From positions 1 to 58,052 of IMG/VR virus record IMGVR_UViG_3300036770_003243: 58,052 bases of DNA; one strand, written 5' to 3'. The notes beneath the pieces were generated by a model, which worked only from the letters and a program-made list of their open reading frames with translations, was not told where the DNA came from and did no database searches. The translations under genes and the position numbers were made by a program. How positions within the stretch are numbered: the stretch's first letter is position 1; each line of letters begins with the position of its first letter. The stretch comes from a virus. Of this stretch, positions 5,693 through 58,052 are shown piece by piece.

Positions 5693-5695
5693 TCC

Positions 5696-6265: not shown

Positions 6266-6272
6266 GGCTCCC

Positions 6273-6998: not shown

Positions 6999-7023
6999 TG
7001 TAGCGGACCAAGCGAGGTGGATC

Positions 7024-7698: not shown

Positions 7699-7699
7699 T

Positions 7700-7894: not shown

Positions 7895-7907
7895 TCAGGA
7901 GGAAGCC

Positions 7908-8027
7908 ATGGAAGGCCAGTTCAACGGGTACGTCCCAGCCAAGTACAAGGTGCCGCTCACCATCGGCGGCATCGTGATCTTGGGCGCGCTGGGCTACCTC
8001 GCCTACAAGTACATCAAGGTCAAATGA
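7908..8027 (+). CDS. 39-residue single-helix membrane protein
   Basis: ATG at 7908 after a near-perfect AGGAGG site. One central helix (LTIGGIVILGALGYLAYKYI) and the tail KVK make up most of the protein. Its stop overlaps the next start (ATGA). Tiny one-helix proteins are typical minor components of phage internal membranes; a holin-like role is also possible. Confidence 0.65.
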   Translation: MEGQFNGYVPAKYKVPLTIGGIVILGALGYLAYKYIKVK

Positions 8028-8350
8028 CCCCCGTGGACAAGTCCCAGCAGGAGCGATTCCTGCGGGAGATTGTCCCCGCAGCGGCCTCCATTTGCCCTGA
8101 ATATGGGCTGGACCCCAAGCGGTGCATCATGGAGGGCGCGATGGCGTCTTCCTGCGGGCGATTCACCATAGGGTGGAACTGGTGGAACCTGCAAGGAGCG
8201 GGTGACGCTGGCTTCTACACGCTGGTCGTACCCGTCCGCAACGGCAACAGCAAGACGGGTGGGTGGGGCAGCATTGAGCAGAAAGTAGCCAAGTTCAGCA
8301 CTCCCTACGCGGCGGTCAAGGCTTGGTGCATGGCGCAGGGAGGACGGTGA
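8024..8350 (+). CDS. Degenerate glucosaminidase-like (GH73-like) protein
   Basis: 108 residues, coupled to both neighbours. The run FLREIVPAAASICPEYGLDP, then IMEGAMASSCGRF, then NWWNLQG follows the layout of FlgJ/GH73 domains, whose core reads roughly QAALESGWG with a catalytic Glu. Here the aligned Glu position is Ala and the domain is short. It may bind murein rather than cut it. The family call rests on this pattern alone. Confidence 0.5.
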   Translation: MTPVDKSQQERFLREIVPAAASICPEYGLDPKRCIMEGAMASSCGRFTIGWNWWNLQGAGDAGFYTLVVPVRNGNSKTGGWGSIEQKVAKFSTPYAAVKAWCMAQGGR

Positions 8351-8919
8351 TGCTGGCAATACGGGGTACGCAAAAGGTTCCGCTGACGTGGCAGTACGTC
8401 ACGCTCAAGAATCCGCTTGAGGTTACCGACCCGGGCAACGTCGCATCCAAGATGACGATCCCCGCTGGCACGGTGATCCGCCTCTACACGGGCGTCGTCG
8501 GCTATGCCAACGACGACAAGAGCAACCCGATCAAGACGCCCAACAGCAAGGGCTTCAGCCTGATCGAGACGTTGCCCGATAGCAAGTCGCTGTTCTGGAA
8601 CTACTACAAGGACGAGCCGCAGTACTACGGCCTGCTCCAGTCGCAAGACTACGCCAAGCTGGAGCCTGCGCGACTTGAGCACTTGTGGATGGTCCAGTTC
8701 CCGAAGTCGGATGGCAAATACAAGGACACCCTCGTCTCGCAGGCGATGGCGGACTACTACGACAAGCTCAACAGCGGCGTTGCGATCCCCAAGCCCGACG
8801 AGGCATCCAGCAAGGACGAGGAGAAGGATGGCGAGGGGGGCAGCTACATCCTCCCTGCGCTGGTCATCGGCGCGCTTGCGGGATTCGCCCTGTACCAAGC
8901 GGCCAAGGGCAAGCGATGA
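8350..8919 (+). CDS. Tail-anchored protein, unknown function
   Basis: 189 residues; ATG at 8350 overlaps the previous stop (TGATG). The soluble part has a beta-rich start (VPLTWQYVTLKNP, then MTIPAGTVIRLYTGV), suggesting an SH3-like or small-barrel domain. An acidic linker (SSKDEEKDGEGG) precedes one membrane helix and the tail KGKR. Part of the tail-anchored series. Confidence 0.7.
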   Translation: MLAIRGTQKVPLTWQYVTLKNPLEVTDPGNVASKMTIPAGTVIRLYTGVVGYANDDKSNPIKTPNSKGFSLIETLPDSKSLFWNYYKDEPQYYGLLQSQDYAKLEPARLEHLWMVQFPKSDGKYKDTLVSQAMADYYDKLNSGVAIPKPDEASSKDEEKDGEGGSYILPALVIGALAGFALYQAAKGKR

Positions 8920-20368: not shown

Positions 20369-20767
20369 ATGTCAACGATCCCTGAGCGGTACTTGGCGGG
20401 CTTTGAGGGGGCGGCGCGGCAGCGGCGGATTCGCGAGATACAACGCGAACGGCGGCTGGCAACCTACCAGCCCCTGCCCAGCGACAAGGGGGTCAAGACC
20501 CGGCGGAGCAAGTGGTCGGCCCGCTTCGAGCGCAAGTACGGCGAGCGCCCAAGGGGCATCTCGGACGTTGCAAGGCTGACAGGGGTTGACCGCCGCATCT
20601 TGAAGCAGGTCTACGATCGGGGACTGGCGGCTTGGTCGAGTGGAGGGCACCGCCCGGGGGCCTCGCAGCATGCGTGGGCCATGGCGCGAGTGCAATCGTT
20701 CGTCCTCAGGGGGCCTACGTCCCACGGCCCTGATAGGATTCTGGCCTTGCAGGCGGGGCTGGTGTGA
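20369..20767 (+). CDS. DUF5824-like protein
   Basis: 132 residues. The run LPSDKGVKTRRSKWSARFER, then VARLTGVDRRILKQVYDRGLAAW, then HRPGASQHAWAMARV matches my memory of DUF5824, a short family seen in phages and large eukaryotic dsDNA viruses. Function unknown; its basic start and helical body suggest nucleic-acid contact. First gene of the short + strand block, with its ribosome site in a hairpin. Confidence 0.7.
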   Translation: MSTIPERYLAGFEGAARQRRIREIQRERRLATYQPLPSDKGVKTRRSKWSARFERKYGERPRGISDVARLTGVDRRILKQVYDRGLAAWSSGGHRPGASQHAWAMARVQSFVLRGPTSHGPDRILALQAGLV

Positions 20768-20799: not shown

Positions 20800-21309
20800 A
20801 TGTTTGGCTTGAATGGCGTAGAGGAAGATCTGGAATCTCAAGGAAAGGCGGCTCTCAACGATGCCGCGAAGATCCAAGAGGAGCAGCTCAAGGAGTTGGA
20901 GAAGAGCAAGGACGTGCTCAAGACGGCGTTCGATGCGTTGACGATCGAGAACAAGGTCCAGATCGTGGCGGACTTCTTGGCCGAGCAGCGCAAAGACCCC
21001 CGAATCGCCAAACCGGACGACCCCAAGTGGGCAGCCACGACGTACGAAAAGCTGCTGGAGGACGCCAAGAAGAACCCCATGTGGTTCGGAGTCCTTGAAC
21101 TCGGTGCCTACCGGGACGAGCCTGCGGGGGCTGTTGGTCCCCGATTCGCTGCGTACGTGCAGAAGCGTTTGGATGGCAAGATCGGAAAGATGGTGCAGCC
21201 AACAGTCCGGCAACCCATCGAGAAGGAGCCCAAGTCTTCGGGGCCGTCTCCCCTCCTGATCATCGGCGGCGCGCTCCTGTTGCTGCTGCTCTTGCGCAAG
21301 AAGGACTGA
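20800..21309 (+). CDS. Tail-anchored helical protein
   Basis: 169 residues; ATG after AGGAGGGGTCG. The first 70 residues are a charged coiled coil (QEEQLKELEKSKDVLKTAFD). A Pro/Lys linker precedes one Leu-rich helix (PLLIIGGALLLLLLLR) and the tail KKD. Same anchor design as the structural-block proteins although located 11 kb from them, so it may also be a virion component or act in membrane steps of lysis. Confidence 0.7.
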   Translation: MFGLNGVEEDLESQGKAALNDAAKIQEEQLKELEKSKDVLKTAFDALTIENKVQIVADFLAEQRKDPRIAKPDDPKWAATTYEKLLEDAKKNPMWFGVLELGAYRDEPAGAVGPRFAAYVQKRLDGKIGKMVQPTVRQPIEKEPKSSGPSPLLIIGGALLLLLLLRKKD

Positions 21310-22964: not shown

Positions 22965-23618
22965 ATGCCAAGCGCGGTCATCATTGGCGACAGCCACGTG
23001 GACGACTGGTCGCCGTTCGGAACCCGTCTCGCCAAGAACCTCAAGGCCGCCGGGTACGATGTGACCAAGCTCGGAGTCGGTGCAACCAGCACGGGCTCAT
23101 GGGCATACGGCAAGGCATGCCGTCCGAACAAGTCCAAGTGCGTAGACGTCGAGACGGATGTCCCCAAGGGCGCGGACGTCCTGCTGATCAGCCTCGGGAC
23201 CAACGACGCAGCCAACGCCCAAGCAGCCAAGTCGGACAGAGCCGCAGCCGCTGCCAAGACGACGGCGCGGATAAAGGCCATGGCCGAGAAGTACGAGGCC
23301 AAGCGCACCATCTGGATCCTGCCCCCGTGGCAGCGGGGCAACGTCAAGCACTACACGCAGGAGGCGATGGACTTCCTCTACGAGGTGGCGCAAGACGCGG
23401 GGGTGGAGCTGTTCGACAGCCGCGCCGCCACAGAGGCGCTGGTCAAGGGTGGCAGTGGCGACGGCGTCCACCTGCTCGGCAAGGGCGCTTCCGCTTGGGC
23501 CGACGCAGTTGCGGCTCAGGTCAAGGGAGAGGCCAAGGTGGCGGATGCGGGGTTCCCCATCTGGCCGATCCTGATAGCCGTTGTCGCCGGTGTAGTGCTG
23601 GCACGCCGCAAGGGCTAG
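22965..23618 (+). CDS. Tail-anchored SGNH/GDSL-family hydrolase
   Basis: 217 residues; ATG after AGGAGCCTC. Canonical blocks: GDSHVDDW (nucleophile Ser), GVGATSTGSW (Gly), ISLGTNDA (Asn) and SGDGVHLLGKGA (Asp/His pair). Such enzymes deacylate or de-esterify carbohydrates and lipids. A C-terminal membrane helix (PIWPILIAVVAGVVLA) and tail RRKG anchor it, as in the virion-type proteins. It may trim host surface or murein esters during entry or lysis. Confidence 0.82.
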   Translation: MPSAVIIGDSHVDDWSPFGTRLAKNLKAAGYDVTKLGVGATSTGSWAYGKACRPNKSKCVDVETDVPKGADVLLISLGTNDAANAQAAKSDRAAAAAKTTARIKAMAEKYEAKRTIWILPPWQRGNVKHYTQEAMDFLYEVAQDAGVELFDSRAATEALVKGGSGDGVHLLGKGASAWADAVAAQVKGEAKVADAGFPIWPILIAVVAGVVLARRKG

Positions 23619-29014: not shown

Positions 29015-29386
29015 ATGGCCACGTCGCCCGCCCGCCGCCCCAAGGAATCACAGGCGGGGCCACCAGACGGTTGGCAATCTTGGGGCCAGCACGTCTTGAG
29101 CGAGCTTGAGCGCTTGTCGCATGCCGTCGAGTCCGTCCGCGAGCAGGTTGCCGAGATCCGCCAAGACGGACGCGTGGCCCAGCACACCAGCGAGATCGAG
29201 GATCTCAAGGTGTGGCGCAAGGCGCACGACGAGGTAGCCACCCCCAGCCAGCTGGGCAAAGCACTTGACAAGATTGACGACCTGCGCACCACCCAGATCA
29301 AAGCCTACACCCTGATGGCGGTCGGCCAAGTCCTCCTGACCGCGCTTGGGGGTATCGTCCTCTGGTGGCTCAAGAAGGCTGGCTAG
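29015..29386 (+). CDS. Coiled-coil tail-anchored protein (XhlA-like)
   Basis: 123 residues, starting one base after the lipoprotein stop. ELERLSHAVESVREQVAEIR is a coiled coil and ALDKIDDLRTTQIKAYTLMA leads into one helix (VGQVLLTALGGIVLWWL) with the tail KKAG. The layout is that of XhlA/hemolysin-type lysis accessory proteins. Overlaps the convergent ATPase gene end by four bases. Confidence 0.65.
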   Translation: MATSPARRPKESQAGPPDGWQSWGQHVLSELERLSHAVESVREQVAEIRQDGRVAQHTSEIEDLKVWRKAHDEVATPSQLGKALDKIDDLRTTQIKAYTLMAVGQVLLTALGGIVLWWLKKAG

Positions 29387-31848
29387 TAGTAGTAGGTTGG
29401 ATCTTCCTGCACCCGCCCAAACATCCACGATGACAGCCGCTCCTTCTCCCACTTGCTTCGGCGCGTGCTGTCGGTGAGGTCGAACCACAGGAACCCGTTC
29501 CAGTTCCCGCCGCCGTGATGGGCCTTGACCGCCCCAGACAGCGACTCGAAGTAACTGCCCGGGACGGCGTTGCGGTTGCTTTCCAGAACATAGAACCTGC
29601 GGGGGGATGCCCCCTCCGTGCCCTTGCCGTTGGCCACCATGACCGTCAGCCCGTCGCGGCGCAGCACCGTGCCGATGGGTGGGATGCGCGGATCCACGCC
29701 CCCCTCCTTGGCCTGCCGTTGCGGAGCTGCGCGGAGCGTAGTGCGCCCCTCGCCGCCCTTGCCGCGAGTAGCGCGGGGGACAGGCTCGGACGCGCCCTTC
29801 TTGGCGGCGGCAAGTACCGATGGCAGCTTGTCGCCCAGCTGGGAGATCATGCACGTCAGCCCGGACGAGAAGTGCTCGTCGTGGCCGCTGATCCCGTAGA
29901 GGCCGTGGACGCACTCATGGACTGCCCGCGCCGTGATGATGGCCTGATGCCGTGGGATCGTCGCATCCAGCGGGATCACGTCGGGCGAGTCGGGGCGCAA
30001 GTTGACCATGCTCTTGGGGATCAACAGCTCCTCTTTTCGCAGCTCGCCTGAGTCCACGAACGGGTTGATGCAGTAGCTCCGGGCACCGCTGACCGTCTTG
30101 CTCCAGTCCGCGTAGGCAAGGGTTCCCTCGGAGAATACGAATCCCACGCAGAACTTCTCCTCGTACTGCCCAAGGATCGCGTAAATGCGGCGCAGTGCCT
30201 CCGTCCAAGCGCGGAGCAGACGGATCTGCTGCTCGCCCATGGTCTCGGGACGCCACTCAGGACCGGGCGACCAGTCCGAGAACTCGTTGGTCAAGCGCAG
30301 CGGTGGACGCCATAGCGCCAGATTCACCACGGAGGCCATGGCCGCTCCGCCCCCCTTGGCTGCCTCCTCGACCATCTCCCTGACCAGATCGGGCGGCGTA
30401 TCTTGGACGGCGGCGGGAGTGGCGATATCGGGGGCCTGCTGGGTGGCCCGCTCCTTCATGATGCTCTGGATCGCGGAGGAGACCTTGTCGGCCTTGTCCT
30501 GCTCCAGCTTGCGCTGCTCGGCCTTGGAGTCGGGCTGGCGGCGCTCGGCCATGCGCTCGTACTCGTACTGCGCATCCCACGCGGCGTTCATGGCGCGCCT
30601 CAAGCCGGCATCCATCTCCACACCAGCGGCCTCGCCTGAGCCCTCGAACTCCTCGTCGAACGCCTCCTCGCGGAATGTGCTGGAGACGTCCTTGGCCAGC
30701 CGCGTCTTGAACTTCTCCCACCACTCGCCGGGCGACCACGTGAAGCTGTCGCGGGTGTTGGTCAGCAGGCGCTTGGTGTCGCCTGTGATCTGCACAAAGA
30801 GCGTGCCCGGGACAATGCCCGCCTCGATCCACATCAGCTGCCCGCCTGCGCGGATCACGGTGCTCCCTGAGGAGTCGTTGGAGGCTGGCGGGGCCAAGTA
30901 CAGCTCGATGCCGGGGTAGCTTGCCTTCTCAGGGAACTTCTTGGCGGTGGGGGGGATCGATACGTTGGGGGCAAACTGCTCGCCGTTGACGATGATGAGC
31001 TTGCCCGGCAGCTCGCACTTGACGACGTAGCTGATGATGTCGGGAGGGCACGGCAGGCCCTTGTTGCCGCCCAGCTGGCGGGTGAGCCCAGCCTCCTGCA
31101 TGTATTCGTGCAGCTCGTTGGTCCCACGGATGTACAGGGACGTGCCGTGGCCCTGCTTTTCGATCTTGGCGATGAACGGCTTGGCGTCGGCGTAGGGCAG
31201 GAACTCGGATTCTGGCTTGGATGGCGAGATGTCCGTCCAGTGCGGGGGCACCCCACCCTTCTGGCGGGCGTACTTGACCTCGTGGCACTTGCCGTCGCGC
31301 CAGTAGTCCCACACCTCGCCGCTGCCGATCACGACCAGTGTCTTGCCGCCACGCTGCTTGGTGACGATGATGAAGTGGTCCCACGGAAAGGTGAGGAGCT
31401 TCTTGGCCTCGCCAAAGCCACCGACTGCCCAGATCGGCTTCTCGCTCATGCCGGGGACCATGAGCTTGTTGAGCAGGATGTCCTCGGTCATGCCCTTGCC
31501 GTCATCGACAGCACTGACGTCGTTATCGCCGCAAGTGAACTCGATCTTGGTGGCTCCAGCATCGAAGCTGTTCTGGATCGCCTCACGCGCCCAAGCCTGT
31601 GGAGGGTGCTTGTACCCGTCCGTCAGGGCGGGCTTCATGCGCTCCTTGCGGGATGGCGGCGCTTGCGATGCGTTGCGCTTGAGCGTGCCCGGCGCAGGCC
31701 GTCCGTGCGGCGGGCCATCGGCGGGGAGGCGCATAGGCAGGTGCAGGCTCTTGCCGTAGCGGGCCTCAAGCGCACGGGCCTCTTCCAGCGTCTCGGTCAA
31801 GTACTCGTCGCCGTTGGGGAGGCGGACGTGGAAGTTGTACCTTGGCAT
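29383..31848 (-). CDS. GHKL ATPase fused to HExxH metallopeptidase-like region
   Basis: 821 residues. Residues ~85-200 are a GHKL (Hsp90/MutL/MORC-type) ATPase: AREAIQNSFDAGAT (N box with the Mg-binding Glu/Asn), VDDGKGM (G1) and VGGFGEAKKLL (G2). A transducer-like region and a charged helical stretch follow. Near residue 660, ARAVHECVHGLYGISGHDEHF gives an HExxH zinc motif with further His/Asp/Glu. The end (PPIGTVLRRDGLTVMVAN, then GNWNGFLWFDL) looks like small beta modules. Residue ~58 shows KRNA, a near-RNP. Immediately downstream of topoisomerase. Role unknown: DNA clamp, conflict or processing protein. Confidence 0.72.
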   Translation of the reverse strand: MPRYNFHVRLPNGDEYLTETLEEARALEARYGKSLHLPMRLPADGPPHGRPAPGTLKRNASQAPPSRKERMKPALTDGYKHPPQAWAREAIQNSFDAGATKIEFTCGDNDVSAVDDGKGMTEDILLNKLMVPGMSEKPIWAVGGFGEAKKLLTFPWDHFIIVTKQRGGKTLVVIGSGEVWDYWRDGKCHEVKYARQKGGVPPHWTDISPSKPESEFLPYADAKPFIAKIEKQGHGTSLYIRGTNELHEYMQEAGLTRQLGGNKGLPCPPDIISYVVKCELPGKLIIVNGEQFAPNVSIPPTAKKFPEKASYPGIELYLAPPASNDSSGSTVIRAGGQLMWIEAGIVPGTLFVQITGDTKRLLTNTRDSFTWSPGEWWEKFKTRLAKDVSSTFREEAFDEEFEGSGEAAGVEMDAGLRRAMNAAWDAQYEYERMAERRQPDSKAEQRKLEQDKADKVSSAIQSIMKERATQQAPDIATPAAVQDTPPDLVREMVEEAAKGGGAAMASVVNLALWRPPLRLTNEFSDWSPGPEWRPETMGEQQIRLLRAWTEALRRIYAILGQYEEKFCVGFVFSEGTLAYADWSKTVSGARSYCINPFVDSGELRKEELLIPKSMVNLRPDSPDVIPLDATIPRHQAIITARAVHECVHGLYGISGHDEHFSSGLTCMISQLGDKLPSVLAAAKKGASEPVPRATRGKGGEGRTTLRAAPQRQAKEGGVDPRIPPIGTVLRRDGLTVMVANGKGTEGASPRRFYVLESNRNAVPGSYFESLSGAVKAHHGGGNWNGFLWFDLTDSTRRSKWEKERLSSWMFGRVQEDPTYYY

Positions 31849-31854
31849 CTTGCC

Positions 31855-32631
31855 TCACGATGAGAACGACTGGAGCACGGTCCCCGTCTCAAGATACAAC
31901 GGCTCGATTCCTTGGACAAGATACTGCTTTCGAAGCACGCTTGTCGTGTGCCCCAATTTGGCGGCGACGATGCCCAGCGCTGCCATGAACTCGGCCTTGA
32001 GCGTGCGCTGCACGTCGCGGGGCTTGAGCGTGTCGAGGCGGGGGCCTGCGCGGCGGATGGAGGCAAGCTCACGCTGCATCTCGGTGTTTGCGCCAAATGT
32101 GCGCAGATCCTTGGCACTCACCTCAAAGGCATCAAGGTACCGATTCACCGCGCTGGCTGACACTGGCAGGAGGCGGGTGTGCTGGCCACGGCAGGTCCGC
32201 TTGCGCTCGGCCAATGCACGCACCAGCGTGGGGTTGGTGATTGTCTTGGTCTGGTGGACGCCGCTCTTGCCGATGTAGTCGATCACTGCGCGGCTGGCCT
32301 TGAGGTCGATGTGGCGGCATTCCCACCCAGTCACGCCAAAGTGGCCGAGCTTCGCAGATGAGCTGTTGCCCGGGCGCTCGTAGGTATCGAGGATCAGGCC
32401 AACAGCAAGGGCAGTCACATCGCCATTCTTGACGTCACGCATGACTGCGGCGCGGAGCGCTCGCTCCTTGGCTTTGAGAGCCTCAATGCGCTGCGCCTTC
32501 TTGGCGTGCCGCTTGGCGACGTCCTCAGGACTGTACCGGTACTGCCAGTTCCCGCTTGGGAACAGCACCTTCTCGGTGTAGGGGTTGCGGACGAGGCGTC
32601 TTCGAAGCCTCCGAAGTGGTCTGCCCGCCAT
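31855..32631 (-). CDS. DNA topoisomerase IB (bacterial/poxvirus type)
   Basis: 258 residues; ATG at 32631 chosen for AGGGAG upstream. GNWQYRYSPEDVAKRHAKKA and ALAVGLILDTYERPGN match the N-terminal half of bacterial TopIB; HFGVTGWECRHIDL, YIGKSGVHQTK (Lys), SAKDLRTFGAN (Arg) and LGHTTSVLRKQYL (nucleophilic Tyr) match the catalytic half. It relaxes both supercoil signs without ATP. The N-terminus carries an RNP motif (RRLVRNPYTEK). Rare in phages; it could relieve strain of circular-genome replication or packaging. Confidence 0.88.
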   Translation of the reverse strand: MAGRPLRRLRRRLVRNPYTEKVLFPSGNWQYRYSPEDVAKRHAKKAQRIEALKAKERALRAAVMRDVKNGDVTALAVGLILDTYERPGNSSSAKLGHFGVTGWECRHIDLKASRAVIDYIGKSGVHQTKTITNPTLVRALAERKRTCRGQHTRLLPVSASAVNRYLDAFEVSAKDLRTFGANTEMQRELASIRRAGPRLDTLKPRDVQRTLKAEFMAALGIVAAKLGHTTSVLRKQYLVQGIEPLYLETGTVLQSFSS

Positions 32632-32632
32632 G

Positions 32633-33343
32633 TCACACTCCCTGCACCAGCAGCTCAAGCTCGGCCACTGGCACTGTGCCACTGTCGGTTGGCGTGGCCT
32701 GATACTCGGAGTCCTTGCCAGCGTCCAGCGTCCTCACGACCTGACTGCCGTACAAGCGCACCTTCCACACGTCGCGGACGCCCCCCAGATCCTCGGCCAG
32801 ACCGATCGCCCGATCCAGTGATCGGGTGAGGAACACGCCCGCAGGCAGCTCCATCTTGCGCAGCAGGCGCTTGCGGTCGCGCACAGGGCGGGCCGTGTAG
32901 AGGGTCAGCAGCTTGCTTGCCTGCCGCGCCGTCGAATTGGGCGACTGCAATTCCTGCACCAGCGTGAAGTAGTCCGAATCGGCATCGGCATCTTGGCCAA
33001 AGAATCCCCGCTCTCCGTACTCCAGCAGGTCTTCGGGGTGCCTGATGTCGGAGGCGAACACTGTGAAGTCCAGATTGCCGTGTCCCACCTTGACAGTGAC
33101 GCTGTTGAGGAACGTCTCCGAATACGGGGAGTCGCTAAACTCGGGGACCAGCGTCACCTTGGACCCACGCCATGCTGGGCCAGCGCGGTCAACTGCCTGC
33201 TCGACTGCATCCGCTACAAGCAGCACTCCGGGCTGTGCCCTCTCGGCCACAAGGTCGAGCGAGTCCCGCGAGAATCTACGGCCTGCGTCCCGCGCAAACC
33301 TGTCCCACTGCGTCGTCGTGATGCCGTTGCGGCGCTTGCGCAT
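32633..33343 (-). CDS. Unknown protein with ADP-ribosyltransferase-like end
   Basis: 236 residues; start at 33343. The N-terminal half (WDRFARDAGRRFSRDSLDLV) is helical and resembles regions of phage head proteins. The C-terminal part, GVFLTRSLDRAIGLAEDLGG, then DVWKVRLYGSQVV, recalls the strand order of viral ADP-ribosyltransferase-type domains, but the key Arg-Ser-Glu triad is not evident to me. Between topoisomerase and a DNA-related gene. Low certainty. Confidence 0.5.
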   Translation of the reverse strand: MRKRRNGITTTQWDRFARDAGRRFSRDSLDLVAERAQPGVLLVADAVEQAVDRAGPAWRGSKVTLVPEFSDSPYSETFLNSVTVKVGHGNLDFTVFASDIRHPEDLLEYGERGFFGQDADADSDYFTLVQELQSPNSTARQASKLLTLYTARPVRDRKRLLRKMELPAGVFLTRSLDRAIGLAEDLGGVRDVWKVRLYGSQVVRTLDAGKDSEYQATPTDSGTVPVAELELLVQGV

Positions 33344-44261: not shown

Positions 44262-45416
44262 ATGGCCACGAAGAAGGTAAACCCCGCGAACCCTTTGCCC
44301 ATTGACCCTCAAGCCCTGCCTGACGATGGCACCCCCGTCACGTTCAGCCAGACCTTCGCCAAGCACGTCGGCTCGGGCAAGGTGGACGACGAGCGCCTCC
44401 CCACAGCGGACGACTTCGAAGACGCGGAGTGGGAGATCCGCCGCCAGACCCCTGACGGCTGGGAGTTTGTCGAGCGAGTCGAGAACGGCATGCCCCTCGA
44501 CAACGAGCTTCGTGAAGACTACGGCCCGGGCAAGTACGAGCTGACCCCGATCGATCCCCGCACGGGCAGGCTTGTCAAGCAGGTGCGCAAGGTCCGCCTG
44601 ATCTCGGCCACCATCACGCCGACTGCATCCGTCCTGCCGTTCCCCGGCGGACGGGAAGAGCCGTACTACCCTCCGATGCCCGCCGCAACCGAAGAGGTCC
44701 CCGCGTGGATGCGATGGCAGATGCAGCAGGCAGCGGAGGAGCGCGCCGAGCAGCGCCGCCGCGCCGAAGAGGCGCTTGCAAGGCAGAAGGAGTTCGAGGA
44801 GAAGCTCGCCCTCCGCGAGTTCGAGCGGCAGGAGCGCGAGGAGCGCGAGCGCAAGCGGCGCGACGACATGGCTGCCGAAGAGGCGCGCCGCCGCGACGAG
44901 CGGTTCGGCCAGCTGCTATCGGCAGGACTTGGCTTGGCACAAGCGTTCTTCACTGGCCAGAACCGCAACCAGCAGCCGCAGAAGGACGTCAACGAAGTCC
45001 TGCTGCGCGAGCTGATGGAGGAGCGCCGATCGCGCACCCCTCAAGCCAACGGCATGCGCGACAGCCTCGAGTTGCTGATGGTGCTGGACAAGCTGGCCGA
45101 GAGCCGCGCTGCGCGGGACAGCCGCCCCTCGCGTGACGATGACGACGACGACGACGACTCGATGAAGCAGTTGCTCGTAGGAATGCTGCCTGCCATGCTG
45201 GGGCGTGGGGGTGGAGGCGGCGGAGCGCCGCAGCTTCCAGATGCCATGGTCGACCAGATGATCGAGCAGGCGTTCCAGAACCCCGCAGTGATCGAGAAGG
45301 TCGCCATGCGCAACCCCAACGGCATCGCAGGCGCGTTCATGCGAGCCATCAAGGCCAACCCCGCTCTGGAGAAGGCCGTGCTGGAAGCTGTAGAGGGCTC
45401 CAGCGAAGAAGATTGA
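44262..45416 (+). CDS. Charged coiled-coil protein, first gene of the late block (scaffold candidate)
   Basis: 384 residues; ATG at 44262 after AAGGAGCAGGAC. The N-terminal ~130 residues are polar and partly beta-like (TPDGWEFVERVENGMPLDNE). Residues ~145-225 are a long Glu/Arg/Lys coiled coil (EERAEQRRRAEEALARQKEF). A poly-Asp run and a Gly-rich hinge precede a helical end with VAMRNPNGIAGAFM. Strong charge, coiled coil and position before the capsid genes suggest a scaffold or assembly factor. No homologue recognised. Confidence 0.6.
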   Translation: MATKKVNPANPLPIDPQALPDDGTPVTFSQTFAKHVGSGKVDDERLPTADDFEDAEWEIRRQTPDGWEFVERVENGMPLDNELREDYGPGKYELTPIDPRTGRLVKQVRKVRLISATITPTASVLPFPGGREEPYYPPMPAATEEVPAWMRWQMQQAAEERAEQRRRAEEALARQKEFEEKLALREFERQEREERERKRRDDMAAEEARRRDERFGQLLSAGLGLAQAFFTGQNRNQQPQKDVNEVLLRELMEERRSRTPQANGMRDSLELLMVLDKLAESRAARDSRPSRDDDDDDDDSMKQLLVGMLPAMLGRGGGGGGAPQLPDAMVDQMIEQAFQNPAVIEKVAMRNPNGIAGAFMRAIKANPALEKAVLEAVEGSSEED

Positions 45417-45423
45417 GGCAGCC

Positions 45424-46068
45424 ATGGCTGAGTACGCAGAAGTCGCAACACGCACCAAGCACGAAGGGGCGCTCGATAAGGCGATCCTGATGAGCGAGAT
45501 CGCGGACTCGATGGTCACAGACCGCGAGTTCAGCGAGTTCGTGATGCGCAAGGTGGCGGGTGCGGGCAACGCGGCTGATGCGCAGGTCATGGAGTGGGCC
45601 AAGTTCGTCGAGTCCCTGCCCTACCGCCGCGAGAGCGGCGAGGTCTACCGCAGCTGGCAGTCCTGCGTAGGGTATCCCAATGGGCAGCCTGCGGGCGGTG
45701 ACTGCGACGATCTCACGATCCTGCTCGTCGCGGGATGCCGTAGCCTTGGCCTGCAATCGATGGTCGAGATCCTCAAGGACTCGGATGGGTGGGGCTTCCA
45801 CGTGAGGGCACGCGTCGGCCTCCCCCCGCATCGGCCCACCTATTGGGCCGTCGTGGATCCCGTATGGCGAAGCGAGCGCGAGTGGGCAATGGACGGAAAG
45901 CCGCTAGAGCAGAGCCCGTTGTACCAGAATTCACAGATGCAGCCCCAAGTACAGGGGCAATCGTACTTCATCACCCCCAGCAGCCCGTTCTCGAAGCCGA
46001 GCTTCTTGACCCACCTGTTGACGTTGTCGGCAGGAGTGGGGATCGGGATGTGGTTGAGGCGGAAGTAG
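45424..46068 (+). CDS. Tail-anchored transglutaminase-fold (cysteine peptidase-like) protein
   Basis: 214 residues. GGDCDDLTILLVAGCRSLGL carries the probable catalytic Cys; GWGFHVRARVGLP the His; YWAVVDPVWRSE the Asp. This Cys-His-Asp order and spacing is that of transglutaminase-like domains, many of which are peptidases. The C-terminus is a membrane helix (LTHLLTLSAGVGIGMWLR) with tail RK. Upstream of the capsid genes and anchored in the membrane, it could process virion proteins or crosslink or cleave murein at entry. Confidence 0.75.
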   Translation: MAEYAEVATRTKHEGALDKAILMSEIADSMVTDREFSEFVMRKVAGAGNAADAQVMEWAKFVESLPYRRESGEVYRSWQSCVGYPNGQPAGGDCDDLTILLVAGCRSLGLQSMVEILKDSDGWGFHVRARVGLPPHRPTYWAVVDPVWRSEREWAMDGKPLEQSPLYQNSQMQPQVQGQSYFITPSSPFSKPSFLTHLLTLSAGVGIGMWLRRK

Positions 46069-47027: not shown

Positions 47028-47678
47028 ATGATCAAGCGTCTGAAGCACCGCCGTACCAGCGGCACCCTCGTCGCCAACCCGCGTCGCAAGAAGCGCAGTG
47101 GGGCCAAGCGTGGAAAGCGCCGCAGCCTGCGCGCCCTGTTCGCCAACCCCCGCCGTCGCAAGAAGCGCAAAAACCCCTACCATGGGATCAAGAGCAGCGC
47201 CAAGCGTCACCGCAACCCCAGCCGCCGTCGCAAGCACCGCAACCCGGGTCTGGAGATCGGCGGCGTGGATCTGGTGAGCGTTGGCGTCGGCTCGGTCGCC
47301 GCCATCGCGCTGGGTTCGGTCGGTCAGGGCATCTTCGACAAGTACCTCGCCAAGAGCTTCTCGGACAGCCCGATCGCCAAGGCCATGCCGAGCCTGATCG
47401 TTGCTGGCGCGGCCTTCGCGGCGCACAAGTACATCGCCAACCCCAAGGTCAAGAGCATCGCCAAGGTCACTCTGGTGCTCTCGATCTTCAAGGCCATCGA
47501 TGACTCGGCGGGCGACAAGATCCGCGACACCGTCAAGGACGTCCTGCCGGGTTCGACCAGCGGCTCGTACCTGCCCGCTCTGCGTGGCTACACCAGCGGG
47601 GCCTACATGGACTCGACTGGCGGCGCGTTCATGTCGACCAACGGCATCCTCCCGGGTGCGGGCCTGTACGGCCTGTAG
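47028..47678 (+). CDS. Basic RNP-motif membrane protein preceding the capsid genes
   Basis: 216 residues; ATG at 47028. The first 75 residues are almost a protamine: repeated K/R clusters with NPRRKKR twice, RKNPY, HRNPS and HRNPG. Two or three hydrophobic stretches follow (LVSVGVGSVAAIALGSVGQG, MPSLIVAGAAFAAHKYIA, SIAKVTLVLSIFKAI), then a Gly/Ser/Thr-rich end. It could bind genome DNA on the inner face of the virion membrane, linking DNA to lipid. Confidence 0.7.
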   Translation: MIKRLKHRRTSGTLVANPRRKKRSGAKRGKRRSLRALFANPRRRKKRKNPYHGIKSSAKRHRNPSRRRKHRNPGLEIGGVDLVSVGVGSVAAIALGSVGQGIFDKYLAKSFSDSPIAKAMPSLIVAGAAFAAHKYIANPKVKSIAKVTLVLSIFKAIDDSAGDKIRDTVKDVLPGSTSGSYLPALRGYTSGAYMDSTGGAFMSTNGILPGAGLYGL

Positions 47679-47764: not shown

Positions 47765-48457
47765 ATGGCACAGACGATCTTTGAACAGCTCGCTCCGTAT
47801 GCGGGCATGACCGTGGTCCCCGGTGTGACCGTGGGGCGGCTGAATTACGCGAACCAACAGGACAGCTTCTCGGATGCGGCGTTCTCGACCACCCTGCAAG
47901 TGGTCAACGCCAACACCGAACTCCAGTTCTTCACCTCGGCCATCGCCGAGACTGGTCAGGGATGGTCGACTGGCCTCTCGCTGACCCAGACGAACTCGAA
48001 GTTCTCGAAAGGACAGCCCCCGGCCAACCAGTGCCTCGTATCGACCCACCTCGGCGTTGCGCTGTACGTCACCAACGATCTCAGCCCCGCTGGATCGCAG
48101 GACATCACGCTCCTCTCGGTGCGTGACACCTTCTCGATCCTGCAAAACTTCAGCTGGGATTTGCAGATCGGTCGCGGCATCACCCGTACGATCGGCTCGC
48201 TGCTGGAGTACCCGGCGGTGGGTGGTGCGTGGTCGACCACCAGCACGACGGGCGGCAACGGATCGGCCCAGAACGGCGTCCCCGCTTGCCACACGGTCAA
48301 GCTGCCGATCCCGATCATCTTCCCGCCCTTGGTCAACGTGGGCCTGACGGCGAAGTGTGGCAACGCCTTCAGCTTGCAGGATGTCTCCGCGCAGGCGAAC
48401 ACCAACATCGTCGTCCGGTTGACTCTGGGCGGCTTCCTCATGACCATGCCGGTCTAA
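47765..48457 (+). CDS. Probable major capsid protein 1 (single-jelly-roll-like)
   Basis: 230 residues. Beta-rich throughout with few charges. Opens FEQLAPYAGMTVVPGVTVGR and ends GGFLMTMPV. The next gene shares this opening (LQPYSKMTVVPGVTVGD), the middle (SWDLQIGRGITRTIGSLLEY versus SWEYQVGDGIIRNVGALAGY), the LPIPIIF/LPIPFMF phrase and the end LTMPV, so they are paralogues. Two related single-barrel capsid proteins are the hallmark of P23-77-type tailless membrane phages; fold inferred, not tested. The strong leader and flanking hairpins fit a most-abundant protein. Confidence 0.7.
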   Translation: MAQTIFEQLAPYAGMTVVPGVTVGRLNYANQQDSFSDAAFSTTLQVVNANTELQFFTSAIAETGQGWSTGLSLTQTNSKFSKGQPPANQCLVSTHLGVALYVTNDLSPAGSQDITLLSVRDTFSILQNFSWDLQIGRGITRTIGSLLEYPAVGGAWSTTSTTGGNGSAQNGVPACHTVKLPIPIIFPPLVNVGLTAKCGNAFSLQDVSAQANTNIVVRLTLGGFLMTMPV

Positions 48458-48485
48458 GCGGCTGCAACGCCAAAAGGAGAGCAAA

Positions 48486-49271
48486 ATGGCTATCAAGAAC
48501 GAGCAGTTCCTCAAGGAATTGCAGCCCTACAGCAAGATGACGGTGGTCCCCGGTGTGACAGTCGGCGACCTGAACTTCGCCTCTGCTCAGAGCGCGTACA
48601 GCACCACGTACATCGCTCCGCAAGCCAACGACCAGTTCGCTGCCAACCGCGAGGCGGATCTCTTCCAAGCCGCGATCGGCGACAACGGTCAGGGTCTGGC
48701 CTCGGGTCAGGTCATGAGCCGCGCCCAGACCAACTGGCTGGACACCGCTGGTCGTCTGCCGGCCAACGAAGTGTTCTTGGGAATCCGCTGCCTCGTGAGC
48801 GTCTACAAGCACACGAACGCCCCGTTTGCGACCCTCGCCAACGGCGCTTCGTTTGCCAACGTGACGACCACGTTCAGCAAGCAGATGCCGATCACGAACG
48901 TCGCGGCTGTGTTTGCGATCATCAACGGCTTCAGCTGGGAGTACCAAGTCGGTGACGGCATCATCCGTAACGTCGGCGCTCTTGCGGGTTATCCGCAGGG
49001 CGGCGGCGTGTGGTCGTCCCCCGTCGCTGCCTTTACCACCGCAGAGGCTGCGCAGAACGGCTACCCCTGCCCGACCGTCGCCAAGGAGCTGCCGATCCCG
49101 TTTATGTTCCTCCCGAACATCAACACCCGGGTCAAGGTCAAGAGCGGCTCGCAGATCAACGTGCCCGCTGGCACGTTCAACCTCGGCGCTGGTGGCGCGG
49201 AGCCCGTTGTGGCGGACTTCCTCGCGATTCGGATGACCTTCCAAGGCTACAAGCTGACCATGCCGGTCTAA
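48486..49271 (+). CDS. Probable major capsid protein 2 (paralogue of the previous)
   Basis: 261 residues; ATG after AAAAGGAGAGC. Same scaffold as the preceding protein, about 30 residues longer because of insertions around residues 95-140 and 215-230 (INVPAGTFNLGAGGAEPV). Such insertions could build a second barrel edge or a surface turret, as in large/small capsid protein pairs. Followed by a second G7/C7 stem-loop. Confidence 0.7.
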   Translation: MAIKNEQFLKELQPYSKMTVVPGVTVGDLNFASAQSAYSTTYIAPQANDQFAANREADLFQAAIGDNGQGLASGQVMSRAQTNWLDTAGRLPANEVFLGIRCLVSVYKHTNAPFATLANGASFANVTTTFSKQMPITNVAAVFAIINGFSWEYQVGDGIIRNVGALAGYPQGGGVWSSPVAAFTTAEAAQNGYPCPTVAKELPIPFMFLPNINTRVKVKSGSQINVPAGTFNLGAGGAEPVVADFLAIRMTFQGYKLTMPV

Positions 49272-49369: not shown

Positions 49370-49900
49370 ATGGCAGGCTACATCGATCCAGTGTTCTCGT
49401 CTTGGGCGACTCCTCTTGGCGAGGCGTACACCCGATGGATCTTCGCAGACAAGCAGAGCAATCCCTACTACGACCAGCCCGACAAGTGGCCGCAAGCGGG
49501 GCAGGTGGTCTTTGCCGACCGCTCGCTCAACTTCTTGGCCGTGGCCAACGGCGCACAATCGACCCTGCCGCTCAACCTCGGCGGCGGCAAGAATGTCATC
49601 GTGTTCAGCCGCGTCTGCATCGTGTTCCCCACGACGCCTGCTGCTCCGAACACTGTCGTCCTGCCAAACCAGATCAGCGCCTACACCACGGTCCAGCAGG
49701 AGCGTCAGGACGGCTTGATCGAGATCGAGAGCACCCCGATCGTCAACACCTTCGGGTTTGGCTGGTCGCAGCACTCGTTCCCTTGCCCCGAAAAGTGGCA
49801 AGGCAACCAGCAGCGCTCGCTCACGATCACGAACAACACCGGCAGCGTCGTGGACATCAAGTTCAGCTGGAAGATCGCATACCTCAACACGGGTCGCTAA
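49370..49900 (+). CDS. Minor capsid/penton-like protein 1
   Basis: 176 residues; ATG after AGAGGAGCGATCTC. Beta-rich: YTRWIFADKQSNPYYDQPDK, LNLGGGKNVIVFSRVCIVFP, VNTFGFGWSQHSFPCPEKW, KFSWKIAYLNTG. Clearly paralogous to the next gene. One-barrel size suggests penton, vertex or minor capsid subunits; it is also possible that this pair, not the preceding one, forms the main shell. Confidence 0.65.
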   Translation: MAGYIDPVFSSWATPLGEAYTRWIFADKQSNPYYDQPDKWPQAGQVVFADRSLNFLAVANGAQSTLPLNLGGGKNVIVFSRVCIVFPTTPAAPNTVVLPNQISAYTTVQQERQDGLIEIESTPIVNTFGFGWSQHSFPCPEKWQGNQQRSLTITNNTGSVVDIKFSWKIAYLNTGR

Positions 49901-49922
49901 CCCGACCCTCACGGAGGCGATC

Positions 49923-50453
49923 ATGCGTTGGGTTGACCCCGCATTCGCGCAGTACCCTCTAGCTGAGCGGTACACTGGCTGGATCTACGGCGATCCGCAG
50001 AGCAATCGCGTCTACTACGACCAGCCAGACAAGTGGCCAGATTCGGGGTACGTCGCATTTCAGGATCGTGAGATCACAACCGTCCTCACGAACTCGAAGC
50101 TGACCGATACGGTCGCCTTCAACCTGACTGGCGGCAAGAACTGCGTGGTCTTCGCCCGGTATGCGATCGCTTCCTTTGTGGGTGACTCCATCACCCAGAA
50201 GCTGCCTACGCAGCTCGGGGCATACGTCTCGTTCCAGCAGCGGCTGGTCGAGGGGTACCTTGAAGTGCAGGACACATCCCTGATCAATGTGTTCGGATTT
50301 GGCTGGAAGCCCCACATCTTCCCCGCTCCGATCACGTGGAACGACAAGCTGCGTCGCACCTTCACGGTCACTATCCCATCAGTCCTCGTCCAGCGTGACA
50401 ATCTCCAGATCACGCTTGGGTGGAAGGTTGCCTACCTCAACACGGGTGCATGA
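49923..50453 (+). CDS. Minor capsid/penton-like protein 2 (paralogue)
   Basis: 176 residues; ATG at 49923 after ACGGAGGCGATC. Shares with its neighbour YTGWIYGDPQSNRVYYDQPD, FNLTGGKNCVVFARYAI, INVFGFGWKPHIFPAP and WKVAYLNTG. The second tandem duplication in the capsid region. Pairs of duplicated shell proteins suggest a heteromeric lattice. Confidence 0.65.
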   Translation: MRWVDPAFAQYPLAERYTGWIYGDPQSNRVYYDQPDKWPDSGYVAFQDREITTVLTNSKLTDTVAFNLTGGKNCVVFARYAIASFVGDSITQKLPTQLGAYVSFQQRLVEGYLEVQDTSLINVFGFGWKPHIFPAPITWNDKLRRTFTVTIPSVLVQRDNLQITLGWKVAYLNTGA

Positions 50454-51717: not shown

Positions 51718-52695
51718 ATGATGGTCAACAAGAACTCGGCGGTCCACTTCTACGGTCGCCGCCCCCATCTCGCTGGAGAGCTGGGAGCGCACTACGCGGG
51801 GTACGAACCCCCGCCGCGCTCCCCGCACCATCTGGCTGGCCCCCTCAAGTCCGCAGGGCAGCTGTACATGCCGGGGTCGCAAGGGACCGCTGCGGTCGGC
51901 GGGATTCTTGACCAGTTTGTCACCAAGGGCATGACCGTCCTCAAGACGGCGTTCCCCGTGCTCGGCAATGCGCTGTCCTTTGTCGGAGACATTGCGAAAT
52001 TCGTCTTGGAGCCGATGGGCAACTTGATGGAGTCGATGGTCTTCGGCGCGGCAACCTATCTGGAGCTGCCGCAAGCAGAAGCCGTGATCAAGGACATGCA
52101 AGACAACTGGTCATCCTATGCCAAGGACGCCTTCATGGACTTCCTCTACGCCTTCTACAGGCGAGTGGGGTCAACGGGCAAGACGGTGGTGGACCTCAAG
52201 GAAGGCCGCGATCCCATCTTGCAGGGCGCGATGGGTGGTGCCCTTGACATGATGGGCATCGGACGCAACTCCAACCGCGTGGCAAACCGCATCTATACCA
52301 AGGCAATCGCTGCGGGGGCAAAGGACTGGCAGGCAGCTGCCGCCGTCTGCTACGGCCTGCTCAAGGGCCTCCAGATCAAGGGATTCCCGTCTGGATTCAA
52401 GCTCAACGTCAAGGGTGTCGACGTCCTGACCGTGACTGGCTCCGATACGAGCAAGGCCATGTGGGTACTGGGCAACGACTTCGACCTCCTGTACTTCGCC
52501 AAGCTGGGACCGAAGTCCTCAGAATGGCACTCACTGGCGTGGGTCGAGAAGCAGTACAAGAGCAAGAGCGGCGGTGTGATGGGTGGGGGAGCTGATACCG
52601 TCAGGACGCCCCCAGCCGCCAAGACAAGTGGCGGTGGGTTGTTCCCCCTGCTGGCGGTCGCTGGCGCTGCGATTCTTGCAATGAGGGGGAAGTGA
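51718..52695 (+). CDS. Tail-anchored protein with internal membrane-active region
   Basis: 325 residues; ATG at 51718 or 51721. Residues ~60-115 are long hydrophobic/amphipathic helices (FVTKGMTVLKTAFPVLGNAL, SFVGDIAKFVLEPMGNLMES). A soluble domain follows (VANRIYTKAIAAGAKDWQAA, FKLNVKGVDVLTVTG). The end has a Pro/Gly linker, one helix (LFPLLAVAGAAILAM) and tail RGK. Two membrane-contact regions would allow bridging or fusion during genome delivery. Confidence 0.65.
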   Translation: MMVNKNSAVHFYGRRPHLAGELGAHYAGYEPPPRSPHHLAGPLKSAGQLYMPGSQGTAAVGGILDQFVTKGMTVLKTAFPVLGNALSFVGDIAKFVLEPMGNLMESMVFGAATYLELPQAEAVIKDMQDNWSSYAKDAFMDFLYAFYRRVGSTGKTVVDLKEGRDPILQGAMGGALDMMGIGRNSNRVANRIYTKAIAAGAKDWQAAAAVCYGLLKGLQIKGFPSGFKLNVKGVDVLTVTGSDTSKAMWVLGNDFDLLYFAKLGPKSSEWHSLAWVEKQYKSKSGGVMGGGADTVRTPPAAKTSGGGLFPLLAVAGAAILAMRGK

Positions 52696-53735
52696 TGGCC
52701 AAGAAGCGCAATGGATCAGGATGTGGATGCGGCGGCATGTGCAAGAACCCGGGGTGTGCCACCAAGCGGCGGCGCAACCCGACTGCCTCTGAGCACGCCA
52801 AGAGGGGTGCGTACCAGTACGGAAGAGCCGAGAAGTCGCTCAAGAAGGGCGATACCTATGGTGCAGCTGCGCTCGCCCACATCGCCGAGTCGAACTTCTT
52901 GGACGGAAACGACTTCGAGGGGGTCCAGTTTGCCCATGATCTGGCCAAGCAGGCCGAGCGTGCATCAAGGGCAGTCCGCAACCCCGTCAAGAACTACGGC
53001 AGCAAGAAGCGCAACCCCACCGTCCACGCCGCCAGCGAGGACTACAAGCTGGGGCTGTTCCAAGGCGCTGCCGAGCGCGGGATGCAACCCCCGCCCAAGG
53101 GCACCAGCTACGACCTGCGGCGCGGCTACGCTGACGGGGCCAAGGTCGCCAAGGCACTGCCGTCCGCACGCTCGGAGGCATTGGGTGTCTACAAGGCCAC
53201 AGGCAACCAGCTGCGGGCCGCTGACGTGCTCTACGACAACGCCAAGGGCGGCGCATCGACGGTGCGCAACCCCCGTGCAGCCAAGTCGCCCGCTACGGCG
53301 AGGGCGTATGTGACCAAGATCCGATCGATTGCGCATCAGGCAGGGATCTCGGATCGGGACGCCCATTGGGCACTTCACTACCCCGAAGCGGCGCAGAGCA
53401 AGCACCCCGCGCAGGCAAGGATCGGCAAGCTGTTCCTTCAAGCCAAGGAGAAGGGGCTGGGCAACGCCGTCATGGCCAAGTTCGAAAAGCGGATCGGGTT
53501 GCTGGCCAACCCCCGCAATCGCAAGAACCCCATGACCGCCGCCGAGCGCAAGCATTGCGCTCACGAGCGTAGCGAGGAGCGGGCGTTTGCATCACTGCTG
53601 GCCAAGATGCCCATCGGGCAGACGGCAACCCTTAGCGGCCACCGCGTCCGCAAGCTGTCCAAGGGCTATGTGGTCATCGATGGCATCCGCCTGAGCGACA
53701 AGCAGGCAGCTGCCAAGATCCACCGGGGGAAGTGA
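52695..53735 (+). CDS. Modular RNP-motif protein with Cys-rich start
   Basis: 346 residues; ATG overlaps the previous stop. Starts MAKKRNGSGCGCGGMCKNPG, then domains separated by RRRNPT, AVRNPV, KKRNPT, TVRNPR, ANPRNRKNPM. Module 1 (AAALAHIAESNFLDGNDF) resembles one in the protein at 2923. The fourth (ARAYVTKIRSIAHQAGISDR, QARIGKLFLQAKEKGL, KFEKRIGLLANP) recurs at the end of the next-but-one gene. The last domain is a small beta module. Likely assembly or genome-associated virion protein. Confidence 0.7.
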   Translation: MAKKRNGSGCGCGGMCKNPGCATKRRRNPTASEHAKRGAYQYGRAEKSLKKGDTYGAAALAHIAESNFLDGNDFEGVQFAHDLAKQAERASRAVRNPVKNYGSKKRNPTVHAASEDYKLGLFQGAAERGMQPPPKGTSYDLRRGYADGAKVAKALPSARSEALGVYKATGNQLRAADVLYDNAKGGASTVRNPRAAKSPATARAYVTKIRSIAHQAGISDRDAHWALHYPEAAQSKHPAQARIGKLFLQAKEKGLGNAVMAKFEKRIGLLANPRNRKNPMTAAERKHCAHERSEERAFASLLAKMPIGQTATLSGHRVRKLSKGYVVIDGIRLSDKQAAAKIHRGK

Positions 53736-54325
53736 TGCCCCGCCGCAACCCACCCAGCCCGTTGACCATAGGCATCGCGGTGGGTGCGGGCATCCTTGCC
53801 TACTTCCTTGTGCGATCCAAGACGGCATCGGCCCAAGATGCGGATGGCGCTCCGTACCAGCCCGTCCAGTACCCACCCAACTCGCCTGAGCTGATTGCGC
53901 TGCTGCAAGAGGCCGCAAAGGCTGCCAACTTGCCCGTCGAGTGGGCATCGATGCCCGCTACCCACACCCTGATCAACAGGGAGAGTGGTGGATGGATCGG
54001 CATCCCCAACTACACGATTCCCGGGGCCAAGGACAAGGCCACGTGGCCCGACACGGTCGCCAAGCTGCGAGCGGGCAAGTCCCCCCCCGGCAAATCGGAT
54101 GCAGCGGGCTTGGGGCAAATGCAGCCCAGCAACATGCGCGCATTCGCGCCCAGCGGGATCAAGGGATACGGAGTGCCGATCGAGGAGGCCATTGGCTTCC
54201 TCAAGTACGTCCACAGCCGATACGGCGATCCGCAGACTGCGCTGAGCATGCACGGCAAGCTGGGGGTCTACGTCAACACCCGCACAGGCAAGAATCAGGA
54301 AAAGAAGTTCAAGGAAGGCTACTAG
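53735..54325 (+). CDS. Membrane-anchored lysozyme-like transglycosylase (virion entry enzyme)
   Basis: 196 residues; ATG at 53735. Begins MPRRNPPSPLTIGIAVGAGI, an RNP motif directly before an N-terminal membrane helix. The catalytic domain has THTLINRESGGWIG (probable catalytic Glu), AAGLGQMQPSNMRAFAPSGI and IEEAIGFLKYVHSRYGDPQT, close to the soluble transglycosylase family used by phages for murein entry. Position among structural genes fits a virion-borne enzyme. Confidence 0.8.
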   Translation: MPRRNPPSPLTIGIAVGAGILAYFLVRSKTASAQDADGAPYQPVQYPPNSPELIALLQEAAKAANLPVEWASMPATHTLINRESGGWIGIPNYTIPGAKDKATWPDTVAKLRAGKSPPGKSDAAGLGQMQPSNMRAFAPSGIKGYGVPIEEAIGFLKYVHSRYGDPQTALSMHGKLGVYVNTRTGKNQEKKFKEGY

Positions 54326-57475: not shown

Positions 57476-58052
57476 ATGCTGATCTACAATCCGGGAGAGC
57501 GCCTGCAATCTTCGGGGTTCATCGCCGGTGTCGCGGACTACGACTGGGACAAGTGGGAGGGCGCGCCCATCACGGATGCGGACAAGGCCAAGGCCGCCGG
57601 CATCGCTGACGGGTTCAAGTCGCAGGCTGACGCTGACAAGTACATGGCCGAGTCCAGCGACCCCTTGAAGATCAAATTCTTGGTCCAGTACGCAGTGACG
57701 GCCAAGAAGAAGCCCGCATTCCAGACCACCTTCACGTCGTCCGCGCAGCTCGATGCATCGGCGGTCAACGTCCTCCTGCCCAAGGGCGGCATGACGGTGC
57801 TGAACGCTCCTGAGACCCTGCCCCAGCAGAAGAGCAAGGCTGCCAACGACATCCTCGCGTCCTTGATGACGGATAGCGTCAAGAAGGCGATCCCACTCAA
57901 CGCCCTCAACACCTACATCGGCGAGCTTGCGCCGATCATCGCACTGGACAAGGGCAAAGCGGCAAAGAGCCTCGAGAGCTTCCTTGCACGATTGCGAATC
58001 TGGCCGATCCTCAATCGCATCGGGTTCTTGGCCCAGAACGAGCTGGATCCCC
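57476..58052 (+). CDS. Large tail-anchored virion protein, N-terminal part (continues at 1)
   Basis: ATG start preceded by a GGGGGAAA ribosome site 8 bases after the stop of the SNF2 gene. The frame runs off the window end and continues at base 1, giving a 952-residue protein. Residues about 20-85 (DYDWDKW, then ADADKYMAESSDPL, then QYAVTAKK) are clearly related to the whole soluble part of the small membrane protein at 2513, so the family has a shared N-terminal module. No enzymatic motif is visible. Position inside the structural operon suggests a virion component. I do not recognise the family. Confidence 0.85.
   Translation, partial: MLIYNPGERLQSSGFIAGVADYDWDKWEGAPITDADKAKAAGIADGFKSQADADKYMAESSDPLKIKFLVQYAVTAKKKPAFQTTFTSSAQLDASAVNVLLPKGGMTVLNAPETLPQQKSKAANDILASLMTDSVKKAIPLNALNTYIGELAPIIALDKGKAAKSLESFLARLRIWPILNRIGFLAQNELDP
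57926..58052. repeat. Direct terminal repeat, copy 2
   Basis: Exact copy of bases 1-127. Joining the copies gives a unique circle of 57,925 bp and restores one open frame of about 952 codons (57476 to the end, then 1 to 2409). Confidence 0.95.

Follow-up and report, generated by a model that had tools for sequence, protein, structure and literature searches.

A recurrent R-N-P motif at protein starts and module joints of an uncultured phage lineage: a possible sorting tag

The modular protein encoded at 52692–53735 of the window (the whole stretch of DNA that was analysed, 58,052 bases) is punctuated by the tripeptide Arg-Asn-Pro (RNP), which recurs in other proteins of the same genome, and this raises the question of what the motif does. 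The first-pass annotation had read the motifs as signals for cleavage, sorting or packaging in proteins built much like polyproteins, with motifs lying between small domains and some modules shuffled between proteins. We called 85 genes in the window with a codon-usage model. Since a direct repeat of 127 bases is present at both ends (1–127 = 57926–58052), the window probably represents a complete genome in circular form, in which the gene at 67–2409 runs across the circle joint, continuing from 57476. Scans of IMG/VR gave a single syntenic relative, IMGVR_UViG_3300006917_000003 (G001; 58,644 bases, circular, terminal repeat of 123 bases), and further members of the lineage were found neither in the genome scans nor in the searches of phage and plasmid records. 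The lineage comparison rests on two genomes only, and for that reason the window and the relative do not count as many independent tests.

The focal protein, its motifs and its downstream neighbours are as follows.

52692–53735, plus strand: focal modular protein of 347 residues, with KRNG, a Cys-rich knuckle with KNP, four RNP, ANP and a second KNP
52773–52781, plus strand: RNP of the 52692 protein, RRRNPTA
52977–52985, plus strand: RNP of the 52692 protein, AVRNPVK
53010–53018, plus strand: RNP of the 52692 protein, KKRNPTV
53265–53273, plus strand: RNP of the 52692 protein, TVRNPRA, six residues ahead of the module common to the 54335 protein
53735–54325, plus strand: lysozyme/transglycosylase-like enzyme, starting MPRRNP (RNP at 53744–53752), then a transmembrane helix
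54335–55000, plus strand: protein with a module common to the 52692 protein but without RNP

The tally for the 52692 protein was thus four RNP, two KNP, one ANP and one KRNG, and the motif counts given earlier for this genome proved right within one or two variants when checked by translation. The middle module matches the 54335 protein (55.6% identity over 81 residues), and a match to the 2923 protein (E = 4e-4) likewise bears out the shuffling of modules between proteins. The C-terminal module shows 57% identity to G_3676 of the relative, starting at the ANP/LNP joint. The slot of the transglycosylase-like enzyme is occupied in the relative by an N-acetylmuramidase (PF11860) in which a hydrophobic segment comes after the initial MKRNP; no significant similarity was found between the two enzymes. 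The knuckle CGCxGxCxNPxC (52704–52781), lying between KRNG and RRNPT, is kept in both genomes (gene 3676 in G001) and may bind zinc.

When the motif count was compared with per-protein residue shuffles, we observed 17 RNP in the window against 1.66 expected (P = 4e-12; maximum in 300 shuffles, 7), and the count rises to 18 with MAGRPLRR taken as the start of the topoisomerase. RNP was the most enriched of all tripeptides, far above what composition predicts. The wider pattern [RK]NP was found 23 times against 3.5 expected, and [KRVTQ][RK]NP[TSA] 11 times against 0.19. In the relative, RNP was again the top tripeptide (23 observed, 1.6 expected, P = 4e-19). Ten control sequence sets, comprising PRD1, P23-77, SH1, two tailed phages and metagenomic stretches, gave 8 RNP when pooled, with 6.8 expected; a general trait of phage proteins or of high GC was therefore rejected as the source of the excess. 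The huge phage LR745208 has TopIB and a DUF6900-like match in common with the window, yet RNP is not enriched in it. Among aligned [RKQA]NP, the NP was kept in 13 of 17 cases compared with a dipeptide background of 40% in the same proteins. By our count, 16–18 of the 23 RNP of the relative sit in segments that cannot be aligned to the window, which argues that the motif is kept or re-acquired during module turnover. No description of an RNP-type motif was found in the literature searched, mostly freely available papers, in agreement with the earlier view that no such phage system had been described.

Two further modular proteins carry the motif in high number.

2923–4539, plus strand: modular protein of 538 residues, an M48-like domain (2923 to about 3330) followed by RNP-delimited modules including DUF6900; five RNP
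3337–3345, plus strand: RNP 1 of the 2923 protein, MKRNPTS, just past the end point of the relative's protease gene; ATG two codons upstream
3727–3735, plus strand: RNP 2, KKRNPTA, opening the module common to the 52692 protein
3979–3987, plus strand: RNP 3, KKRNPSK, with an RKNPG counterpart in G_10652 of the relative (weak alignment)
4102–4110, plus strand: RNP 4, AKRNPAG, aligned with KQNPG opening the same module in G_10652
4318–4326, plus strand: RNP 5, VVRNPTS, closing the module opened at motif 4
4596–5366, plus strand: modular protein of 256 residues; four RNP and one QNP, spacings 65, 64 and 54 residues
4761–4796, plus strand: QNP...RNP pair closing module 1 of the 4596 protein, aligned with QNPSASMVGFQRNP in the relative
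4983–4991, plus strand: RNP of the 4596 protein, GVRNPTS
5175–5183, plus strand: RNP of the 4596 protein, KTRNPSR
5337–5345, plus strand: C-terminal RNP of the 4596 protein, KRRNPAK

The DUF6900 assignment of the 2923 protein comes from Pfam PF21841, matched in two stretches (E = 2e-27). Its HELGH...ERRAD domain is 51% identical to the free-standing G_8579 of the relative, for which the Peptidase_M48 match was above the cut-off; the metalloprotease-like domain, which opens a larger protein in the window, thus has its own gene in the relative, directly upstream of the genes for two motif-rich proteins. The RNP-bearing part of the 2923 protein opens with an internal Met (MKRNPTS). The N-terminal module of the 4596 protein is 51% identical to G_9022 of the relative, and the identity stops at the QNP...RNP pair. 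In G_9022, a linker of approximately 40 bp, NP[ST]A[SH]MVGFQRNP, occurs three times between unrelated modules, its DNA almost unchanged from copy to copy, and here too an internal Met stands ahead of RNP. Such internal Met residues, together with modules that one genome fuses and the other encodes apart, would fit a fusion of tagged genes at their tagged starts.

To place the motif relative to the modules, boundaries were defined as the ends of partial homologies between proteins. Thirteen of 15 such breakpoints lay within 10 residues of [RKAQL]NP, with 3.5 expected and none of 20,000 random placements reaching 13, in a test that is slightly favoured because the motif itself lengthens alignments. 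The position of motifs between small domains therefore held for most joints. One detail departed from the earlier description: the single RNP of the 44262 protein is not at a module joint but in the C-terminal region, which aligns without interruption to the relative. Pfam domains fall between motifs: the TopIB core spans residues 39–235, the zeta toxin domain residues 48–210 with RNP at 4, 261 and 265, the GNAT domain residues 188–227 with RNP at 111, and the muramidase domain residues 59–209 with RNP at 3. Most copies are internal, between modules, and [RK]NP is found in the first 12 residues in 8 of 54 cases (2.2 expected). The tagged starts are MKRNP, MPRRNP, MRLRNP, MKQRNP and MAGRRNP, and at these the motif does not separate two products, as every motif of a polyprotein should. 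The motif surroundings are basic (+2.1 per 16 residues, compared with +0.85), and the mean flank identity between motif sites is 0.30–0.32. Tandem repetition of one domain was rejected, as an all-against-all comparison of 54 segments gave few related pairs, mostly orthologous or already noted. A recurring mini-domain ahead of RNP (G_40050, 4596 of the window and G_9022), suspected by eye, is not put forward, since the comparison gave no better than E = 0.008.

The remaining carriers and variants discussed here are listed below.

29383–31848, minus strand: GHKL-ATPase-like protein (HATPase_c_3, E = 5e-5, just below the cut-off); KRNA variant at 31672–31680 after a small N-terminal segment, excluded from the RNP count
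31855–32631, minus strand: topoisomerase IB (PF01028, E = 6e-17); RNP at 32581–32589 (LVRNPYT), with the catalytic core following some 20 residues later
32633–33343, minus strand: protein starting MRKRRNG; tag variant at 33326–33334, excluded from the RNP count
44262–45416, plus strand: coiled-coil-rich, putatively late protein; RNP at 45309–45317 (AMRNPNG) and KKVNPAN near the N-terminus
47028–47678, plus strand: protein with a very basic N-terminal tail holding five [ARK]NP, then hydrophobic segments; directly upstream of a capsid-like pair
47211–47219 and 47238–47246: RNP of the 47028 protein; 47169–47177: KNP; 47073–47081 and 47142–47150: ANP

Both NP positions of the 44262 protein are kept in the relative (68% identity), as are all five tail NP of the 47028 protein, whose whole-protein tally is two RNP, one KNP and three ANP. 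The topoisomerase of the window is a protein of 257 residues, and its counterpart in the relative forms the end of an RNP-studded protein of 594 residues (G_34989); VRNPY precedes the TopIB domain there too, and the 68% identity begins at the motif. The carriers have unrelated folds, namely topoisomerase IB, a zeta-toxin-like kinase, a GNAT acetyltransferase, two cell-wall hydrolases, GP88 and DUF6900. Replication and DNA-processing proteins contained no RNP in 4,940 residues in the window (P = 0.004) and none in 3,634 residues in the relative (P = 0.011). Proteins with a C-terminal transmembrane helix, 15 in the window and 9 in the relative, were likewise free of RNP, a result within chance for their size.

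The window encodes a PolA-type polymerase, a D5-like primase/helicase, SF2 and SNF2 helicases, a PD-(D/E)XK nuclease, topoisomerase IB, an M15 peptidase, DUF5824 and several cell-wall hydrolases. In about 15 proteins (for example 67–2409, 2513–2914, 5363–8919, 20800–21309, 22965–23618 and 51718–52695) a single C-terminal transmembrane helix is followed by Lys/Arg, and this predicted set suggests that the phage has a membrane inside the particle and many virion proteins anchored by their C-termini. Terminase, portal, HK97 capsid and tail genes, the marks of tailed phages (Caudoviricetes), were not found among the 30 window proteins scanned against PHROGs, the same scan giving incidental weak tape-measure matches. 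A simple pattern search of the P-loop-bearing genes revealed no FtsK/HerA packaging ATPase of the kind that goes with membrane-containing icosahedral phages (Varidnaviria), although a divergent one could escape it, and no gp21-like protease (the T4 prohead-protease class) was among the families matched in the PHROGs/Pfam scan, which covered part of the genome. The genes of the putative virion region are given here.

45424–46068: transglutaminase-like protein (cysteine peptidase fold, weak match) with a C-terminal transmembrane helix; adjoins the capsid-like genes
47765–49271: adjacent pair of paralogous beta-rich proteins, 47765/48486, kept in the relative
49370–50453: second such pair, 49370/49923, kept in the relative

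By position and weak folds, the two pairs are likely to be the capsid genes. They are approximately 61–68% identical between the window and the relative, and no known relatives outside the lineage were found by sequence in the searches made. The AlphaFold models of the capsid-like proteins had pLDDT of 42 and 52, and the jelly-roll capsid matches were weak, none reaching E < 0.001 in PDB; assignment of a virion class from the capsid fold was dropped, these models being too poor to classify. The transglutaminase-like protein, 63% identical in the relative, is a candidate for a cell-wall enzyme or a second protease.

Taken from the sequences, the chances seem to us about even that [KRV]-[RK]-N-P-[TSA] serves as a short linear tag for sorting, which would most likely load soluble proteins into the virion. 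The modular design of the earlier proposal was supported, as was selection on the motif, and of the functions offered, sorting or packaging fits best, since the motif is found on single-domain starts and on unrelated folds and avoids the replication and the C-terminally anchored proteins. A short, exposed motif in one or several copies on unrelated proteins, better conserved than its surroundings, bears the marks of a linear binding motif. In this reading, the tag would stand in exposed stretches, at the extreme N-terminus or in the joints of small domains, and would be read by one common partner, most likely part of the assembling virion (the capsid lattice, a scaffold or the packaged DNA), so that soluble proteins of unrelated function would be carried into the particle. 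The virion is the simplest common destination, because RNP is missing from replication proteins but present on cell-wall enzymes and on the products of genes near the likely capsid genes. Proteins with a C-terminal transmembrane helix would use the membrane instead and need no RNP. The modules may have begun as separate tagged genes that were later joined or swapped at the tag, and fusions would carry several copies for this reason. One point against a sorting tag is the 54335 protein, which has a module of the 52692 protein yet no RNP.

The possibility that the motif is a DNA-level element, a recombination or packaging site CGCAACCC incidentally read as RNP, was considered because the motif DNA is nearly always CGC-AAC-CCN, with CGC as the Arg codon in 17 of 18 and 21 of 23 motifs, compared with 51–52% elsewhere in the same proteins. 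However, Arg before Asn outside RNP is also CGC in 81–82% of cases, which is not significantly different (Fisher P = 0.16), the Asn and Pro codons vary, and CGCAACCC in the window is nearly confined to one strand and to the reading frame (16 to 1). Thus, selection acts on the protein, and a DNA-level signal, tested in this way and rejected, is hardly credible. At the protein level, RNP might reflect flexible basic N/P-rich linkers spread by module duplication and recombination and devoid of any recognition function; the threefold near-identical linker of G_9022 shows that linkers get copied, and A-N-P and Q-N-P variants occur. We consider such a linker habit improbable, since RNP as such is enriched ten- to fourteen-fold over composition, the flanks of the carriers are dissimilar, and RNP is present at N-termini, where nothing is linked. 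Binding of RNP in a basic stretch to the packaged genome, with the carriers riding in on DNA, could explain part of the pattern because the flanks are basic; the 47028 protein with five NP in an arginine/lysine-rich tail and the DNA-binding topoisomerase IB would fit. Against this, V is the second commonest residue at −1, basic neighbours are few in GGVRNPTS, WGIERNPAE and STVRNPRA, the N-P is strictly kept where basic residues vary, and the replication enzymes, which need DNA binding most, lack RNP; nucleic-acid binding as the role of the motif is therefore improbable as well.

Proteolytic processing, in which a phage protease, with the M48-like HELGH domain as the candidate, would cut multi-module polyproteins at R-N-P or close to it, ranks behind a sorting tag and appears rather unlikely. 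Cleavage would make fused and separate modules equivalent, and there are indeed modules that are joined in one genome but encoded apart in the other, as seen for the protease domain with its RNP modules and for TopIB; the domain at 33344 also occurs alone or in fusion. The M48-like domain, with HELGH and ERRAD conserved, is fused before or encoded upstream of RNP modules, which keeps cleavage a lead, and the weakly matched transglutaminase-like protein adjoins the capsid-like genes. On the other side, the motif is often located at residues 2–8, too early for a cut to release anything; for at least six RNP the start lies within residues 3–6, and a cut there frees almost nothing. The motif is also present on single-domain enzymes, the residue at −1 varies (R, V, K, Q, H), and small HExxH proteins are frequent in phages.

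A sorting tag would have its parallels in known systems. Encapsulin cargo-loading peptides are short peptides that recruit unrelated cargo to a shell; the concept is alike, but encapsulins are not phages, the peptide is another one, and the shell partner of RNP is only putative. In phage T4, the capsid-targeting sequence (CTS) on the internal proteins IPI–IPIII and Alt is a short, mostly N-terminal tag that carries proteins into the head and is the sole feature common to a varied, rapidly changing group of soluble proteins (PMC3012670; PMC7411985), and its existence makes a tag-loading system feasible. RNP, too, is a short tag common to otherwise unrelated soluble proteins. However, the T4 tag is a propeptide of approximately 10–20 residues that is removed by gp21, whereas the RNP core has three residues and is found in domain joints as well, with as many as five copies in one protein; no tailed-phage head genes were recognised among the window proteins scanned, the two tags are not homologous, and the RNP carriers are putative virion proteins. 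In the giant phage SPN3US, a cleavage motif is common to several head and ejection proteins, with eight propeptides all cut after a T4 gp21-like motif (PMC7411985). The window likewise has a phage peptidase candidate, but no prohead protease of that class was found in the part of the genome scanned and many RNP are too N-terminal to release a domain.

If RNP is a loading signal, sequence alone would predict what uncultured phages of this kind carry into the cell (a topoisomerase, a kinase, an acetyltransferase, cell-wall enzymes), and the motif would be among the smallest protein-sorting tags known in phages. More tentatively, and with less confidence than in the tag itself, we propose that a tail-less phage lineage may use three residues as a universal address code, which would admit proteins to the virion whatever their function and would give an open, evolvable cargo hold that is delivered at infection; as each module would bring its own code, modules and whole enzymes could be freely swapped, fused and split. 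If RNP is instead a cleavage site, it would represent a polyprotein strategy undescribed for phages in the papers found. The motif also offers a way into a lineage for whose capsid and packaging genes the searches made gave no match to a known family. Among the other genes, the DUF5824 protein at 20369–20767 (Pfam E = 3e-32) is 75% identical to the copy of the relative and belongs to a family that occurs in giant viruses and other viruses.
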